Of a stretch of 20,560 nucleotides of DNA, positions 2,720 through 18,540 are shown piece after piece. How positions within the stretch are numbered: position 1 is the stretch's first letter; every line of letters begins with the position of its first letter. A model generated the notes under the pieces. The model saw nothing but the letters and a program-made list of their open reading frames with translations. It did not search any database and was not told the origin of the DNA. The stretch is from the NCBI GenBank assembly GCA_003560175.1, contig PWIZ01000357.1:1-20560 (forward strand). The letters are read 5' to 3'. Made by a program: the position numbers and the translations under genes. Origin of the DNA: Halomonas sp. GTDB taxonomy: Bacteria; Pseudomonadota; Gammaproteobacteria; Pseudomonadales; Halomonadaceae.

Positions 2720-4699
2720 TCAGGCACGAACCGGCAGCCGCGAGGCGCCCCCTTCCAGCACCTCGCGGATCTCCTCGCCCTCCAGAGTCTCCCGTGACTC
2801 CAGCGCGGCGGCCAGTCGGTCCAGCTCCGCCCGATGCTGCTCCAGCAGCTGGCGACCGCGCGCCTCCAGCTCCATCAAGAGCCGTCGGATCTCCTCATCC
2901 ACCAGGCCGGCGGTGGCCTCGCTGTGCTCACGCAACTGGGTCATCTCGCGACCCAGGAAGGCGTGCTCCTGCCCCTGGGAGAGGGCGACCGGGCCGATCC
3001 GCTCACTCATGCCCCAGCGCGCCACCATGCGTCTCGCCAGGCGGGTAGCCTGTTCTAGGTCGTTCTCCGCCCCGCTGCTCACCTCACCGAAGACGATCGA
3101 CTCGGCCAGCCGACCGCCGAACATCACTGTGATGCGGTCGCGCAGGTAGGAGGCGTTGTAGTGGACCCGCTCCTCGTCGGGTACCTGAGCGGTGACGCCC
3201 AGAGTGCGCCCCCGGGGCAGTACCGTGACCTTCTCCAGCCGGTCGGTGTGGGGCAGCAGGTGGGCGAGCAGCGCATGGCCCGCCTCATGGTAGGCGACCA
3301 CGTGACGCTGGGCTTCGGAGAGCCCCAGCTCGCGCTCCTCGCCCAGCATCACCCGATCCCGGGCGTCCACGAAGCTGCTCCAATCCACCTCGCTGAGACC
3401 GCGCCGCCCGGCCAGCAGGGCGGCCTCATTGGCTAGGTTGGCGAGATCCGCCCCGGAAAAGCCGATAGTGATCTCGGCCAGCCGCGCCAGGTCGACATCG
3501 GCGGCCAGCGGCATGCGCCGGGTGTGCACCCCAAGGATCGCCTCGCGGGCCTGGCGATGGGGGTTCTCCAGGGTCACCTTGCGGTCGAAGCGCCCAGGAC
3601 GCAGCAGCGCCGGGTCCAGTACGTCGGGGCGGTTGGTGGCGGCTAGCACCACCACCGCCTCATGGCCCTCGAAGCCATCCAGCTCGGCGAGGATCTGGTT
3701 GAGGGTCTGCTCGCGCTCGTCGTGGCCGCCGCCCACTCCGGCACCCCTAGTGCGGCCGATGGAGTCGATCTCGTCGATGAACACCACCGAGGGCGCCTTC
3801 TCCTTGGCCTGGCGGAAGAGGTCGCGCACCCTGGAAGCGCCCACCCCCACGAACATCTCGATGAATTCCGAGCCGCTGATGCTGAAGAAGGGCACCCCTG
3901 CCTCGCCGGCCACCGCCCTGGCCATCAGCGTCTTGCCGGTGCCGGGCGGCCCCATCATCAGGATGCCCCTTGGCATACGTGCGCCCAGCGCCTGGAAGCG
4001 CTCAGGCTCCTTGAGGAACTCGATCACTTCGAAGATATCACGCTTGGCGTTCTCGGAGCCCGCCACGTCGGCCAGCTTCACCTGGCTCTGCTGGGGCTCC
4101 ACCAGGCGGGCCCGGGACTTGCCCATGCCGAAGGTGCCTCCGCCGCCGGTCAAGCGCTCCTGCATGCGGTTCCAGAACCAGAACAGCAGCGCCAACATCA
4201 GCAGCCAGGGCACCACGCCGGCCAGCAGGCGCTGCCACATGGCGGGGTCCGTCGGCCGCGCCGCGATCCGCACCCCGTGACCCTCCAGTCGCTCCAGCAG
4301 TCGCTCGCTCTCGACGTCTGGACGCGTGGTCGCAAAGGCCTCGGCCTCACCGAGGTCCAGATCCAGCCGGCCCGAATCGCTGAAACGCCCCTCGAGGGAC
4401 TGGCCGCGCAGCGTCACCTCGTCGACGTGCCCGGCGTCCACCGCCTCGAGGAAGTCGGAATAGGTCAGCTCGACCCGAGCCTGGTGCTGGGTACCGTCCA
4501 GGTAGTGGAACATCACCAGGATCACGAAGGCCATCCACACGAACAGCAGCCACTGCTGGCGGGGGTTGCCGGAGGGAGGCTCCTGCCCGTTGGTCGTCGG
4601 CTGCCGGGGGTCGGAGGGAGGCTCCTGCCCGCTGGTCGGCGGCGGCCGGGGATCGGAGGGAGGCTCTGGCGGCGGGTTACGAGGAGCAGGAACGGCCAT
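2720..4699 (-). CDS. FtsH-family membrane AAA+ zinc metalloprotease with proline-rich N-terminal extension
   Basis: A 659-residue ATP-dependent membrane protease. In order it has a proline-rich cytoplasmic tail (1-48), TM1 (about 49-67), a periplasmic domain (about 70-155) and TM2 (about 157-176). The AAA+ module follows, with Walker A GPPGTGKT (250-257), pore loop FVGVG (283-287), Walker B VVFIDE (305-310) and the second region of homology ending in LLRPGRFDR (365-373). The protease domain has the zinc motif HEAGH (471-475) and the third ligand Asp547 in [11 protein letters not shown]. All catalytic elements are present, so it should degrade membrane and soluble proteins. It is probably a paralogue of the housekeeping FtsH, because it lacks the usual rlmE/folP context and carries an extra 40-odd N-terminal residues with a 14-residue repeat. 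ATG 4699 has only a weak ribosome binding site. It is divergent from the patatin-like gene. Confidence 0.93.
4571..4666. repeat. 42-bp in-frame tandem repeat in the ftsH-like gene
   Basis: The sequence GGAGGGAGGCTC recurs at 4571, 4613 and 4655, giving a 42-bp period of just over two copies. In the protein this is [14 protein letters not shown] followed by [14 protein letters not shown] (residues 15-42). The period is a multiple of three, so copy-number change would leave the frame intact. Confidence 0.85.
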
Positions 4700-12457: not shown

Positions 12458-13645
<1,188 letters not shown>

Positions 13646-13688
13646 GAGCGGCCGACAGCATTCCCTCTGGGCTCGATGCCGGCTGATA

Positions 13689-13710
13689 CTGTCTCGCCTT
13701 GGCGGGACAG
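13689..13710 (+). other. Hairpin between tgt and yajC
   Basis: CTGTCTCGCC and GGCGGGACAG form a 10-bp stem (one G-U pair) around a TT loop. It is followed by GCAACC rather than a T-tract, so it looks like an RNA processing or stability element rather than a terminator. Confidence 0.4.
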
Positions 13711-13746
13711 GCAACCTTATCCAAACCAACCAGGAGACACCCACCC

Positions 13747-14079
13747 ATGATGGATTTCTTCATCGCTCCGGCCTACGCCCAGGATGCCGCTGCCGGCAGC
13801 GGCATGGCCCAGATCGTCATGCTGCTCGGCTTCGTGCTGATTTTCTACTTCCTGCTGTGGCGCCCCCAGGCCAAGCGCGCCAAGCAGCACAAGCAGCTGA
13901 TCGGCGGGCTCTCCAAGGGCGACGAGATCGTCATCGGCGGCGGCGTACTGGGCCGCATCACCAAGGTCAGCGATGACAGCGAATTTCTGACTCTGGAGAT
14001 CGCCGAGGGCACCCAGGTCAACGTGCAGAAGAACGCCGTGGCAGCGGTGCTGCCCAAGGGCACCATCAAGGCCATCTGA
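13747..14079 (+). CDS. yajC: Preprotein translocase subunit YajC
   Basis: A 110-residue single-span inner-membrane protein of the SecDF-YajC accessory translocon complex. After a short N-terminus (MMDFFIAPAYAQDA), the transmembrane helix is at about 19-39 (MAQIVMLLGFVLIFYFLLW). It is followed by the YajC signature RPQAKRAKQHKQLIGGLSKGDEI and GGVLGRITKV. AGGAGA lies 9 bases before ATG 13747; the adjacent ATG 13750 is also possible. Length equals E. coli YajC. It is followed by a terminator-like hairpin rather than running directly into secD. Confidence 0.96.
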   Translation: MMDFFIAPAYAQDAAAGSGMAQIVMLLGFVLIFYFLLWRPQAKRAKQHKQLIGGLSKGDEIVIGGGVLGRITKVSDDSEFLTLEIAEGTQVNVQKNAVAAVLPKGTIKAI

Positions 14080-14092
14080 ATCGTGTCCTTCC

Positions 14093-14120
14093 GGCCCCGC
14101 CCCTCGGCGGGGCCGCTTTT
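14093..14120 (+). terminator. Terminator/attenuator hairpin between yajC and secD
   Basis: GGCCCCGCC (14093-14101) and GGCGGGGCC (14106-14114) form a perfect 9-bp GC stem with a CCTC loop, followed by GCTTTT. It looks like a Rho-independent terminator within what is normally one operon, so it may be partial or may separate transcription units. Confidence 0.75.
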
Positions 14121-14229
14121 GATCGCCGCGACAACTCCGTGGCGATCATGACGTTTAGACGTCATTTTCCTAACGTCCGCAACGCACGTTGCCAGCAAAC
14201 GTTGTCAGCAATCTGAGGGCAGGGCTCGC
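14121..14229 (+). promoter_or_regulatory. Structured leader of secD with a possible 22-codon ORF
   Basis: After the hairpin at 14093-14120 the leader holds three more inverted repeats. They are GATCGCC...GGCGATC (14121-14127/14141-14147), ATGACGT-TTAG-ACGTCAT (14148-14165, perfect 7-bp arms, followed by TTT), and GCAACG-CA-CGTTGC (14179-14192). An ORF from ATG 14148 to TGA 14214-14216 (MTFRRHFPNVRNARCQQTLS plus Ala-Ile) ends 13 bases before secD. Its stop overlaps the GAGGG of the secD ribosome binding site. Its own ribosome binding site is poor, so coding is doubtful. Regulation of secDF here is an inference. Confidence 0.35.
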
Positions 14230-16080
14230 ATGCTCAACCGTTACCCAATGTGGAAGTATCTGCTGATACTGATCGTTCTCGCCGTCGGCGTGGTCTACTC
14301 GCTGCCCAACCTCTATCCCGAAGATCCGGCGGTACAGATAAGCAGCGGTCGAGGCGACGCCACCCTCGATCAGCGCCAGCTCGAGCGCATCCAAGACTCC
14401 CTGCGCGAGGCAGGCATCACCATCAAGGCCGTGGAGAGTAGCGAGAGCAGCGTACTGATCCGCCTCGGCGACGCCGACGAGCAACTTCAGGCCCGCGACC
14501 GTATCGCCGCCATGCTCGACGATGACTTCGTGGTGGCACTGAATCTCGCCGAGTCCACCCCGCGCTGGCTGCAGGCGCTCTCCGCCTCGCCAATGACCCT
14601 GGGCCTCGATCTGCGCGGCGGCGTCCACTTCCTGCTGGAAGTGGACATGGACGCCGCAGTGACTCAGCGCCTGGAAGTCAACGCCAGCGCCGTGCGCGAG
14701 CAGTTGCGCAGCGAACGGATCCGCTACCGCGACACCGAGATCGAGGAACGCACCCTCACGCTGACCTTTACCAACGAGGAGGATCGCGACGCGGCCCGGC
14801 GCCTGATCAGCCGGGAATTCCGCGACTTCGACTATCAGGATGTCGGTGATGGTCGCGGTGCGGCCCTGGCCATGACCCTCACCGACCAGGCGGTCAACGA
14901 GATCCAGGACTACGCGGTTAACCAGAACCTCACCACCCTGCGCAACCGGGTGGACGAACTGGGGGTTGCCGAGCCCATGGTCCAGCGCCAGGGGCCGGAT
15001 CGCATCGTGGTGGAGCTGCCCGGCGTACAGGACACCGTGGCCGCCAAGCGGGTGGTGGGCGCCACCGCCAATCTGGAGTTCCGCCTCGAGGCGCGTCCGG
15101 ACACCCCGGACAACGAGACCGAGGCCTTCTCGTTCCGCAACGATGAGGCGCGCAGCGCCGACCTGATGCGCGACGTGATCATCACCGGCGACAGCGTCTC
15201 CAGCGCCAGCCGCAGCTTCGATGAAAGCGGCCGCCCCCAGGTCAATATCAACCTGGACGGCACCGGTGGCACCCTGATGAACCGCGCTACCCGTACCAAT
15301 ATCGGCCGCAACATGGCGGTGCTGTTCATCGAGCACAAGACTCGCGACAGCGTGGAGATGGTCGACGGCGAAGAGGTCATCGTCCGCGAGCCTTACACCG
15401 AGCGCGGCCTGATCAGCCTGGCCACCATCCAGAGTGCGCTGGGCAACAGCTTCCGCATCACCGGACTCGACTCGCCCACCGAAGCGGCGGAGCTGGCCCT
15501 ACTGCTGCGCTCGGGCTCGCTCGCCGCGCCCATCTACTTCGTGCAGGAGCGCACCATCGGTCCCAGCCTGGGCGCCGAGAACATCAAGCGCGGTGTCATG
15601 TCGGTACAGATCGGCCTGCTGCTGGTGGTGCTGTTCATGCTGATCCGCTACAAGGTTTTCGGTGTCATTGCCAACGTGGCGCTGGCCCTCAACCTGACTC
15701 TGCTGATGGCGGCCATGTCCATGCTCGGCGCCACCCTCACCCTGCCCGGCATCGCCGGCATCGTGCTGACTCTGGGTATGGCAGTGGACGCCAACGTCTT
15801 GATATTCGAACGCATACGCGAGGAGTTGCGCGGCGGGCTTTCGGTGCAGCAGGCGATCCATGCCGGCTACGAGCGCGCCTTCACCTCCATCGTCGACGCC
15901 AATATCACCACCCTGCTGGTGGCGGTGATCCTGTTCTCGATCGGCACAGGGCCGGTCAAGGGCTTCGCGGTAACCCTGTCGCTGGGGATCATCACGTCGC
16001 TGTTCACCGCCCTGCTGGTGACCCGCGCGATGGTGAATCTCGTCTACGGTGGCAAGCCGGTCAAGAAGCTCTGGATATAA
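14230..16080 (+). CDS. secD: Protein translocase subunit SecD
   Basis: A 616-residue inner-membrane protein of the RND superfamily that, with SecF, uses the proton gradient to drive late steps of Sec export. TM1 is at about 9-24, followed by the large periplasmic P1 region with the D1 motif GLDLRGGVHF (125-134). The cluster of five C-terminal transmembrane helices follows (about 455-600), with the motifs NVALALNLTLL, LPGIAGIVLTLGMAVDANVLIFERIREE and SIVDANITTLLVA. These carry the conserved transmembrane Asp. Length matches E. coli SecD (615). ATG 14230 has GAGGG and AGGG within 10 bases upstream. secF follows after 9 bases, so the two are cotranscribed. Confidence 0.98.
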   Translation: MLNRYPMWKYLLILIVLAVGVVYSLPNLYPEDPAVQISSGRGDATLDQRQLERIQDSLREAGITIKAVESSESSVLIRLGDADEQLQARDRIAAMLDDDFVVALNLAESTPRWLQALSASPMTLGLDLRGGVHFLLEVDMDAAVTQRLEVNASAVREQLRSERIRYRDTEIEERTLTLTFTNEEDRDAARRLISREFRDFDYQDVGDGRGAALAMTLTDQAVNEIQDYAVNQNLTTLRNRVDELGVAEPMVQRQGPDRIVVELPGVQDTVAAKRVVGATANLEFRLEARPDTPDNETEAFSFRNDEARSADLMRDVIITGDSVSSASRSFDESGRPQVNINLDGTGGTLMNRATRTNIGRNMAVLFIEHKTRDSVEMVDGEEVIVREPYTERGLISLATIQSALGNSFRITGLDSPTEAAELALLLRSGSLAAPIYFVQERTIGPSLGAENIKRGVMSVQIGLLLVVLFMLIRYKVFGVIANVALALNLTLLMAAMSMLGATLTLPGIAGIVLTLGMAVDANVLIFERIREELRGGLSVQQAIHAGYERAFTSIVDANITTLLVAVILFSIGTGPVKGFAVTLSLGIITSLFTALLVTRAMVNLVYGGKPVKKLWI

Positions 16081-16089
16081 GAGGTGGTA

Positions 16090-17016
16090 ATGAAAACCCT
16101 CATCAACCGACAGTTCGACTTCATGGGCAAGCGCCGGGTCGCCTTCGCGATCTCGGCCGCGCTGATCCTGGTGTCGATCGTCTCGCTGCTGTTCCAGCAG
16201 CTCAACCTGGGGCTGGACTTCACCGGCGGCACCCTGGTGGAGGTCCGCTACGCTGTGGCGCCCTCCCTTGAGGCCGTGCGTCAGACCCTTGAGAGTGCCG
16301 GGTTTCGTGACGTCTCGGTACAAACCTTCGGCGCCTCCACCGAGGTGCTGATCCGCCTGCAGCAGGCCTTCGACCCAGAGGTCGGTGACCAGGTGGTGCA
16401 ACTGCTGCGCTCGGGTGGCGAAAGCGTCGAGCTGATTCGCGCCGAGTTCGTTGGCGCTCAGGTGGGCGAGCAGCTGCGCGATCAGAGCGGCCTGGTCCTG
16501 CTGGTGGCCTTGGGCATCGTGATGCTCTACGTGGCGTTTCGCTTCCAGTACAAGTTCGCCATCGGCGCCCTGCTGGCACTGATGCACGATGTGATCATCG
16601 TGGTCGGCATCTTCTCGCTGTTCCAGCTCGACTTCGACCTCACCGTGCTGGCGGCGCTGCTGGCGGTGATCGGCTACTCCCTCAACGACACCATCGTGGT
16701 CTACGACCGCATCCGCGAGACGATCCGCAAGTCGCGCCTCGACGACATGCCGGCGATCTTCAACGAGGCGATCAACATGACCCTGTCGCGCACGCTGGCG
16801 ACTTCCGGTACCACTCTGCTGGTACTGATGGCACTGCTGCTGCTGGGCGGGGACATGATCCACCAGTTCTCGATTGCCCTGATCATCGGCGTGGTGGTCG
16901 GCACCTTCTCCTCCATCTACGTGGCCGCTGCCCTGCTGATCGCCGTGAAACTTCAGCGCGTAGACCTGATGCCGCCCAAGAAAGAGGATGCCGAGGCCGA
17001 AGAAGAGCTGCCCTGA
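16090..17016 (+). CDS. secF: Protein translocase subunit SecF
   Basis: A 308-residue partner of SecD with six transmembrane helices. TM1 is at about 16-36, followed by the D1-like motif LGLDFTGGT (40-48). A short periplasmic domain leads to ALLALMHDVIIVVGIFSL and IGYSLNDTIVVYDRIRE, the family signature with the transmembrane Asp, and then NMTLSRTLATSGTTLLVL. ATG 16090 follows GAGG at 16081-16084; an in-frame GTG at 16084 overlaps that site and is rejected. It starts 9 bases after secD. A hairpin terminator at 17063-17098 ends the unit. Confidence 0.98.
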   Translation: MKTLINRQFDFMGKRRVAFAISAALILVSIVSLLFQQLNLGLDFTGGTLVEVRYAVAPSLEAVRQTLESAGFRDVSVQTFGASTEVLIRLQQAFDPEVGDQVVQLLRSGGESVELIRAEFVGAQVGEQLRDQSGLVLLVALGIVMLYVAFRFQYKFAIGALLALMHDVIIVVGIFSLFQLDFDLTVLAALLAVIGYSLNDTIVVYDRIRETIRKSRLDDMPAIFNEAINMTLSRTLATSGTTLLVLMALLLLGGDMIHQFSIALIIGVVVGTFSSIYVAAALLIAVKLQRVDLMPPKKEDAEAEEELP

Positions 17017-17062
17017 GGCCGACGCTTCCGCCTGACCTGCGCCCCCAGCGGACGGGACGCAT

Positions 17063-17098
17063 GAAGACCACCCGGCTTGCCGGGTGGTGTCTTCGTTT
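17063..17098 (+). terminator. Rho-independent terminator after secF
   Basis: GAAGACCACCCGG pairs with CCGGGTGG(TG)TCTTC through a 13-bp stem with a two-base bulge and a CTTG loop, followed by GTTT. It lies 47 bases after the secF stop. It is also placed to act on the minus-strand flavohemoglobin gene converging from the right, though its minus-strand tail (ATGC) is poor. Confidence 0.75.
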
Positions 17099-17128
17099 CA
17101 GCCCCCCTGTCAGAGAGCCTCGCTGGTG

Positions 17129-17917
17129 TCAGGAGGCCCCGCTGAAGCGGATACGCGGACCGAAGATCTCGTAATGGAGTTGGTCGTCGCCGTAGCCCAT
17201 CCGCTTGAGCAGAATGTTCAGGCCCGACATGAAGGGCGTCGGGCCACAGAAATAGACATCGCCGCGCCCCTCGAAGGGCAGCCACCTCTCGAGAATGGCC
17301 GTATCCAGATAGCCGATGTGGTCGGCCCCCTCGCCCTGCTCGTAGGCGACATAATACTGGAAGCCCTTCTGCGCACTCAGCGCGCGAAGCTCATCGTGCA
17401 TGACATGGTGGGAGCGGTCGCGACAGCAGTGGATAAATACCAGATGTTCCAGATCCCAGGCTTGCTTTACCGCATTGAGCAACATGCTGATCAGCGGCGT
17501 GATGCCAATGCCCCCGCCGATCAATACCGGCCTCACGGAACGCTTCTCGACGACAAAGTCGCCGGTGGGCGGCCGAAGCCGGACCCTGTCGCCGACACTG
17601 GCATGGTGCAGGAAGTTGGAGACCTGACCGGGGACCGGGGCCCCGGGGGCCTCTGCCTTGACGGTAATGCGATAGAAAGGCTCACCGGGGGCACTAGATA
17701 GCGAGTACTGGCGAATCTCGTCGTATGCCGATGACGGTGGCTGGGTCTTGACCCCCACATACTGGCCGGGCCGGAAGTCGGCGATCGGCTGGTTGTCTTC
17801 CGGGCGCAGGTAGAAGGACTTGACGTCGCCGGTCTCGCGTTCGGCCCTGTCGATGATGAAGACCCGATCGCCGCGCCAGCCACCAGGCGTGGCCTCGTTC
17901 GCCTGATAGATCCCCTC
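17129..17917 (-). pseudogene. FAD/NAD(P)H reductase half of the interrupted hmp
   Basis: The frame after the amber codon encodes 262 residues of ferredoxin-reductase-like FAD and NAD(P)H domains, with all expected motifs intact. The nearest in-frame start is GTG 17758, which would delete the first FAD-domain strands, including FRPGQY. An AGGAGG sequence overlaps the TAG (17919-17914), but no ATG, GTG or TTG lies in frame close behind it, so independent translation is doubtful unless the stop is read through. Confidence 0.55.
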
Positions 17918-18328
17918 CTAGGTCTGAATGAAGATCGCCGCCAGGGCCTGGTAGGCCTCTGCCCACGCCGTCAGCACGGGATCGTCGTCATGCAGCTTGA
18001 GGTGGTCACGAATCGCTTCCAGCAGGTATTTGCCAACGATGGGGTAGTGCTCCGGGGCCACCTGCAGGCTGGCATGCTTGTGGGCGATGCGCTTGACAGC
18101 CGGCCCCAAGGCCTCCAGCTGGTCGATATGGCTGGCATAGGCGAAGACCGAATCGGCCAGGGCACGCGACTGCTCACCCTTCGCCTGGTTGGCCATGTTG
18201 AAGATGTGCTTGAGCTCGGGGTGGTGGTTGAACAGCTTGTCATAGAACAAACGGGTGATCCTTTCCCCTTCATCCCCGAGTAGCGGGGCAGTGCTCTTGA
18301 CCGTATCGATGGTGGACTGAGACAGCAT
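17918..18328 (-). CDS. Globin-domain fragment of the interrupted hmp
   Basis: The translatable part before the amber codon is a 136-residue single-domain haemoglobin. Distal Tyr29 (FYDKLF), the FNMANQ loop, proximal His85 (IAHKHASLQV) and Tyr95 (EHYPIVG) are all at the same residue numbers as in E. coli Hmp. It ends AAIFIQT, just where the third proximal residue, Glu135 in E. coli, would be encoded. A stand-alone globin could still bind haem and oxygen but would lack its own reductase and the Glu of the His-Tyr-Glu relay. It is translated with a good ribosome binding site, so the fragment is probably made if the stop is real. Confidence 0.7.
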   Translation of the reverse strand: MLSQSTIDTVKSTAPLLGDEGERITRLFYDKLFNHHPELKHIFNMANQAKGEQSRALADSVFAYASHIDQLEALGPAVKRIAHKHASLQVAPEHYPIVGKYLLEAIRDHLKLHDDDPVLTAWAEAYQALAAIFIQT

Positions 18329-18358
18329 GCAAACCTCCGATGTGATGTGAGAGCTTTA

Positions 18359-18375
18359 AGTTGCATCTATAATAC
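18359..18375 (-). promoter_or_regulatory. Possible hmp promoter with NsrR-like half site
   Basis: On the minus strand TATTAT (18375-18370) could serve as a -10. It is followed directly by TAGATGCAACT (18369-18359), which matches 8 of 11 bases of the NsrR half-site AAGATGCATTT as I recall it. NsrR is the NO-sensing repressor of hmp in many gammaproteobacteria. No convincing -35 or second half site was seen. On the plus strand the same stretch contains a perfect TATAAT (18368-18373). Confidence 0.25.
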
Positions 18376-18395
18376 TTGTTATAGCCTGATAAAGC

Positions 18396-18469
18396 GGGAG
18401 GCGCCTCCCCGAGGCACCACTCTCGGGAACAGCGCCGGTCACGGCGCTGCGCGCCATGCCTGGCGCGCA
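18396..18469. repeat. Cluster of three perfect or near-perfect palindromes
   Basis: GGGAGGCGCCTCCC (18396-18409) is a perfect 14-bp palindrome. AGCGCC-GGTCAC-GGCGCT (18431-18448) has 6-bp arms. TGCGCGCCA-TGCC-TGGCGCGCA (18448-18469) has perfect 9-bp arms. They sit between the hmp start and the suhB terminator. Function is unknown; they could be part of the hmp control region or of a small RNA. Confidence 0.6.
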
Positions 18470-18471
18470 AT

Positions 18472-18502
18472 AAAAAACCCCCGCAGGGTTTCCCTGCGGG
18501 GG
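18472..18502 (-). terminator. Rho-independent terminator after the suhB-like gene
   Basis: On the minus strand CCCCCGCAGGG-AAA-CCCTGCGGGGG forms a perfect 11-bp stem followed by TTTTTTATT, an almost ideal terminator. It lies 38 bases after the suhB-like stop codon. In the plus direction the tail (TCATTGTTATT) is a much weaker T-tract. Confidence 0.92.
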
Positions 18503-18540
18503 TCATTGTTATTGGCAACTGGAATCTTGTGACGGGTGGC

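Follow-up and report, generated by a model that had tools for sequence, protein, structure and literature searches.

The window analysed here, 20,560 bases long, is the whole of contig C283 of a halomonad draft genome (G000; 2,625,658 bases in 439 contigs, 72.38% complete and 4.24% contaminated). On its minus strand, alone between secF and suhB (17013-18468), lies a frame for the NO-inducible flavohemoglobin Hmp (17129..18328; NCBIfam NF009805), consisting of 399 codons and a terminal TGA and broken at codon 137 by an in-frame TAG (17918..17920, minus strand). Apart from these two, no stop occurs in the 400-codon frame, as a first-pass annotation of this DNA had described it. The 5' piece (17921..18328, minus strand) encodes the globin domain in 136 residues, and the 3' piece (17132..17917, minus strand) comprises 262 codons of the FAD/NAD(P) reductase domain, the first 53 of which include no ATG, GTG or TTG. 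When the TAG is read as X, the full frame scores 461 bits against the family cut-off of 432; the separate pieces score 197 and 249 bits, both below it. A one-frame globin and FAD/NAD(P) reductase that passes the family cut-off is found only in this way, and not in the gene as encoded.

About 25-50 bases upstream of the start codon is a block (18352..18379, minus strand) that is partly conserved among the four orthologous loci aligned and that we take to be a candidate NsrR-like site. On the other side, between hmp and secF, an inverted repeat that looks terminator-like by eye (17063..17094) recurs in three of the four orthologous loci that were aligned. Far from hmp, the minus strand also carries a 659-codon frame for an FtsH-family protease (2720-4699) with a proline-rich, repeat-like N-terminus. 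A contaminant contig was considered and rejected: among 18 others searched, the best match to the window's tgt gene is 95% identical and comes from a genome of the same genus, and the secD-secF stretch is 93% identical to that of another, which argues that the contig fits its genus and bin. The closest named relatives of the hmp gene itself are Halomonas.

The position of the stop within the protein is well defined. The first-pass annotation had placed Tyr29, His85 and Tyr95 at their E. coli numbers and, after a two-residue offset ahead of an AW motif, the stop on E. coli Glu135; each of these points is borne out. In a HMMER alignment to E. coli Hmp (1gvh), residue 136 of the window pairs with residue 134, a gap of two residues having opened ahead of the AW motif; the alignment ends there, and the placement on residue 135 is that of the next position. 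Aligned with the Ralstonia eutropha flavohemoglobin FHP (1cqx), which requires no offset, the TAG codon has a glutamate as its partner. The haem-pocket residues Tyr29, Gln53, His85 and Tyr95 are all present in the window, and these four and Lys84 are each invariant in 120 of 120 homologues aligned (among the matches listed, 120 of 4,959 found). Glutamate occupies position 137 in the same 120 of 120 listed and is replaced by the TAG in the window. In E. coli, Glu135 presumably belongs to the haem network of Hmp.

Comparison with close orthologues suggests that the lesion is very young. The four closest with DNA (H. cerina, H. korlensis, H. jincaotanensis and a draft genome labelled Aquisalimonas; 89-91% protein identity) are stop-free over their first 399 codons and have GAG at the affected codon in all four cases, so that the comparison of relatives which had been proposed as a check supports the single change from GAG to TAG. 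The Hmp of Halomonas sp. HK25, known as a protein sequence only, is closer still (94% identical to that of the window), and none of the Halomonas orthologue proteins (H. cerina, H. korlensis, H. jincaotanensis and HK25; 89-94% identical) has an internal stop. Between the window and HK25, eight replacements and the stop fall on the window side, nine replacements on the HK25 side, and six are unplaced. Among five orthologous hmp genes, the window branch carries 28 synonymous and 21 nonsynonymous singletons and one nonsense; the four other branches have synonymous/nonsynonymous counts of 18/12, 18/3, 22/10 and 19/17, summing to 77 and 42. Of the positions conserved in at least 90% of 37 homologues, the stop is the sole one at which the window deviates. 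The description of an otherwise clean gene with both domains under constraint is supported by the orthologue singletons and the homologue alignment together, and hmp was probably under constraint until recently. In raw counts, the window-branch singletons are 21 synonymous and 19 nonsynonymous in the 3' part and 7 and 2 in the 5' part; this relatively greater number of replacements downstream of the stop leaves room for some relaxation. Close orthologues that are intact and a gene free of additional decay are what a young nonsense allele would show; both are found here, and they support the earlier suggestion that the lesion is either very recent or an error.

The distribution of hmp among the genomes searched is patchy, arguing that it is an accessory gene. 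At E<=1e-100, it is carried by 4 of 90 genomes of the genus and by 4 of 275 of the family, the window's own genome included in both counts; the other copies (3 of 89 in the genus, 3 of 274 in the family) are stop-free. H. cerina, H. korlensis and H. jincaotanensis have hmp at the same site, adjoining secF. In H. korlensis an extra 411-codon frame (1606-2841 of locus L034, minus strand), which we take by eye to be CNNM-like, separates suhB from hmp; the window has none. In five near relatives (G092, G094, G062, G003 and G061), secF adjoins suhB with no hmp between them: their alignments to the window break off at 17012-17016 and resume at 18468-18539, and where the gene would lie they have a spacer of about 36-132 bases. 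The three named hmp-bearing Halomonas are more distant relatives, yet the nucleotide identity of hmp to theirs (0.889-0.907) exceeds that of secF, secD and suhB to the same genomes (0.808-0.839). This suggests that hmp may move among halomonads, or is often lost, or evolves more slowly than its neighbors.

These data very probably reflect a lone and very young nonsense substitution in an otherwise intact hmp, present either as a consensus error or as a recent null allele, rather than a decoding signal. A single G:C-to-T:A substitution, presumably recent, would have converted GAG to TAG; read normally, the gene would yield 136 residues, an incomplete globin with none of the reductase, and the allele as written would be expected to yield no working Hmp. 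Other genes of the assembly were scanned for stops flanked by coding sequence in the same frame. The scan took in the window and 100 contigs, which make up 26% of the assembly (689,791 bases). The first batch consisted of the window and 60 contigs (357,838 bases), from which the best 25 candidates of one scan were considered, 24 listed and 10 inspected in another, and 217 viewed by eye in a third; the second batch of 40 contigs went through two narrower scans only, which were run on both batches and gave 58 candidates listed in one and 31 in the other, of which 15 were considered. The search was non-exhaustive and sifted by eye, and three cases, hmp included, were taken as lesions. Neither both-batch scan returned the Nif3 case described below, and a lesion followed by only a short piece can therefore escape them.

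The second lesion is a TAG in a Nif3/YbgI-type gene (NCBIfam PRK10799 and TIGR00486), at 2253-2255 on the minus strand of locus L093 (contig C273). It falls at residue 200 of the piece examined, where 29 of 29 relatives read encode glutamate (23 GAG, 6 GAA). The gene is present in all 90 genus genomes searched, and the stop is absent from all 88 other genomes with a match that covers the site, a count from which G097 was left out since its match ends at residue 153. The third lesion is a TGA in a regulator with a LuxR-type domain, at 2803-2805 on the plus strand of L123 (contig C304); the site is a cysteine codon in the 98%-identical copy of G092 and the 84%-identical copy of G025. With 400 kb of the relative G062, a homology scan of the longest open reading frames matched 44 of 304 and flagged 33 stops, mostly shadow frames by eye; with frames chosen by coding score, 57 of 318 proteins matched, with 65% as the lower limit and 17,354 residues covered, and the eight stops flagged were, by eye, shadow frames or pre-start stretches with no clear lesion among them. 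The homology scan against G062 left the Nif3 stop unflagged, and so it too misses cases.

All three lone lesions (hmp, Nif3/YbgI and LuxR-type) are G:C-to-T:A changes relative to their nearest copies. Given the spectrum of the window branch, the chance that a one-step route to a stop would be of this class is 0.22, 0.24 and 0.16 for the three, with a product of 0.0085; the product is 0.0064 with a pooled six-branch spectrum and 0.085 with a flat one, in what is a post hoc test on a sample of three. The signature fits oxidised-guanine damage, which could have occurred in the tube or in the cell. Two papers (PMC8748355, PMC12390751) reportedly associate G:C-to-T:A errors, or G-to-T mismatches, in sequencing with oxidised guanine. 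The ordinary singletons on the window branch number 67 in the 4,203 columns aligned within 12500-17016; 8 of them are G:C-to-T:A and 49 are G:C-to-A:T transitions, and the G:C-to-T:A share in five relatives is 12/85, 7/53, 2/29, 14/166 and 2/65. In hmp alone, the class accounts for 6 of 50 singletons on the window branch, with the stop counted, and for 1/30, 0/21, 4/32 and 4/36 on the others. Because G:C-to-T:A is not raised among ordinary singletons, there was no flood of oxidation-type errors. A mutator was rejected as well, the share on the branch being not clearly above that of relatives. A search of the 72%-complete assembly for MutY yielded nothing above the cut-off; a sub-threshold match appears by eye to be an intact endonuclease III, and the TAG that accompanies it apparently lies outside the coding part.

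The chances are about even that the TAG arose as an error, in the library or in the consensus of the draft, and that the living cells have an intact hmp. The gene shows no decay elsewhere, all three lesions share one class of change, and the Nif3/YbgI gene, kept throughout the genus, bears the same type of stop in the same assembly; for this last reason an error is judged slightly likelier than a recent mutation. The truncated allele also lacks a second sighting. No other reductase piece of a truncated allele was found at E<=1e-60 among 936 candidates, and the seven globin pieces found at E<=1e-40 among 111 candidates are none of them above 76% identity. These absences weigh little, however, since the protein collection searched is clustered at 90% and does not list the window's own pieces either, and the lack of any G:C-to-T:A excess among ordinary singletons also counts against an error.

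That the stop is a real and recent null mutation, in a gene that is accessory and that the lineage can do without, has a chance that falls somewhat short of even. Accessory-gene loss by nonsense mutation is common in bacteria, and both the rarity of hmp in the family and its absence from between secF and suhB in five near relatives are what such dispensability would lead one to expect. On the other hand, a profile search found the window's hmp to be the only gene of the assembly that matches globin family PF00042, so that no second Hmp is seen as cover, and a lesion of the same class occurs in the Nif3/YbgI gene, which is retained genus-wide.

Readthrough or suppression of the TAG, by which some residue would be inserted at position 137 and Hmp completed, had also been raised in the first-pass annotation, and it is very unlikely. 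The 3' half of hmp retains its sequence, and both TAG lesions (hmp and Nif3/YbgI) lie at conserved glutamates, both of which count in its favour. However, the suppressor tRNA search that had been proposed found no anticodon CTA among the 37 tRNA genes of the 72%-complete assembly (Rfam tRNA model, with anticodons assigned by ARAGORN in the loci read). A tRNA-Gln is likewise missing among the 37, which argues that the tRNA set is incomplete, and a suppressor tRNA could lie in the missing 28% of the genome. Release factor RF1 (prfA) is encoded and scores 542 bits, above its curated cut-off of 423, and TAG is an ordinary terminator, ending 92 of 485 coding segments of at least 150 codons in the stretches sampled, rather than the rare one that would go with a recoded or suppressed amber gene. 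In addition, the third lesion is a TGA at a cysteine codon. The tRNAs, RF1 and the use of terminal stops all fail to support recoding, which was rejected. Ordinary near-cognate misreading of TAG would not insert glutamate. The most specific form of this idea, a glutamate-inserting, TAG-reading tRNA in the unassembled part of the genome that would allow low-level production of both Hmp and Nif3/YbgI, is more improbable still. If TAG were indeed read as glutamate, the lineage would be one that suppresses amber codons naturally and places one of them in an active site.

Division of the gene into a working single-domain globin and a separate working reductase started within the frame is scarcely credible and was rejected for want of a start codon near the stop: although bacteria do have globins of a single domain, with which the first piece aligns, that piece is shorter than the Vitreoscilla haemoglobin alignment and lacks the conserved glutamate, and re-initiation after the TAG is unpromising, the next ATG, GTG or TTG being the GTG of codon 191 (17756..17758, minus strand), 53 codons past the stop and inside the reductase part.

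The lone, young nonsense substitution favoured here attaches no importance to the residue on which it fell. Special weight had been placed on Glu135, but a stop costs the protein all that follows, whatever residue it hits, and two other lone lesions occur in the assembly. In the intact hmp of H. cerina, 98 of 397 codons are one substitution away from a stop, and 30 of these 98 encode glutamate, the commonest residue of that kind; a stop that hits a glutamate is therefore unsurprising. The landing of the TAG on Glu135 is a coincidence, without mechanistic weight. Of the earlier reading, then, the placement on Glu135, the single change, the constraint and the choice between a recent lesion and an error stand, while readthrough and the importance given to Glu135 do not. 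The evidence favours a young lesion of the ordinary sort, or a consensus error, over recoding. Before recoding is invoked for a single stop in a draft genome made of many fragments, further genes of that assembly should be examined for comparison.

The relationship of this gene to known systems can be summarized from three sides. With E. coli Hmp (1gvh) and R. eutropha FHP (1cqx) it shares both domains, with Tyr29, Gln53, Lys84, His85 and Tyr95 in register; unlike a NO-inducible flavohemoglobin, the frame as encoded stops after residue 136. Vitreoscilla haemoglobin has a complete globin fold in one chain of 146 residues, whereas the globin piece of the window has 136, and the alignment to Vitreoscilla haemoglobin continues to read-through residue 142, so that a complete single-domain fold is not encoded either. 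A passage of PMC4810482 describes a premature stop in katE; the hmpA variant there is a missense change. The closest likeness of the window's hmp, with one in-frame stop and the rest of the frame preserved, is to bacterial pseudogenes and null alleles that arise by one nonsense substitution.
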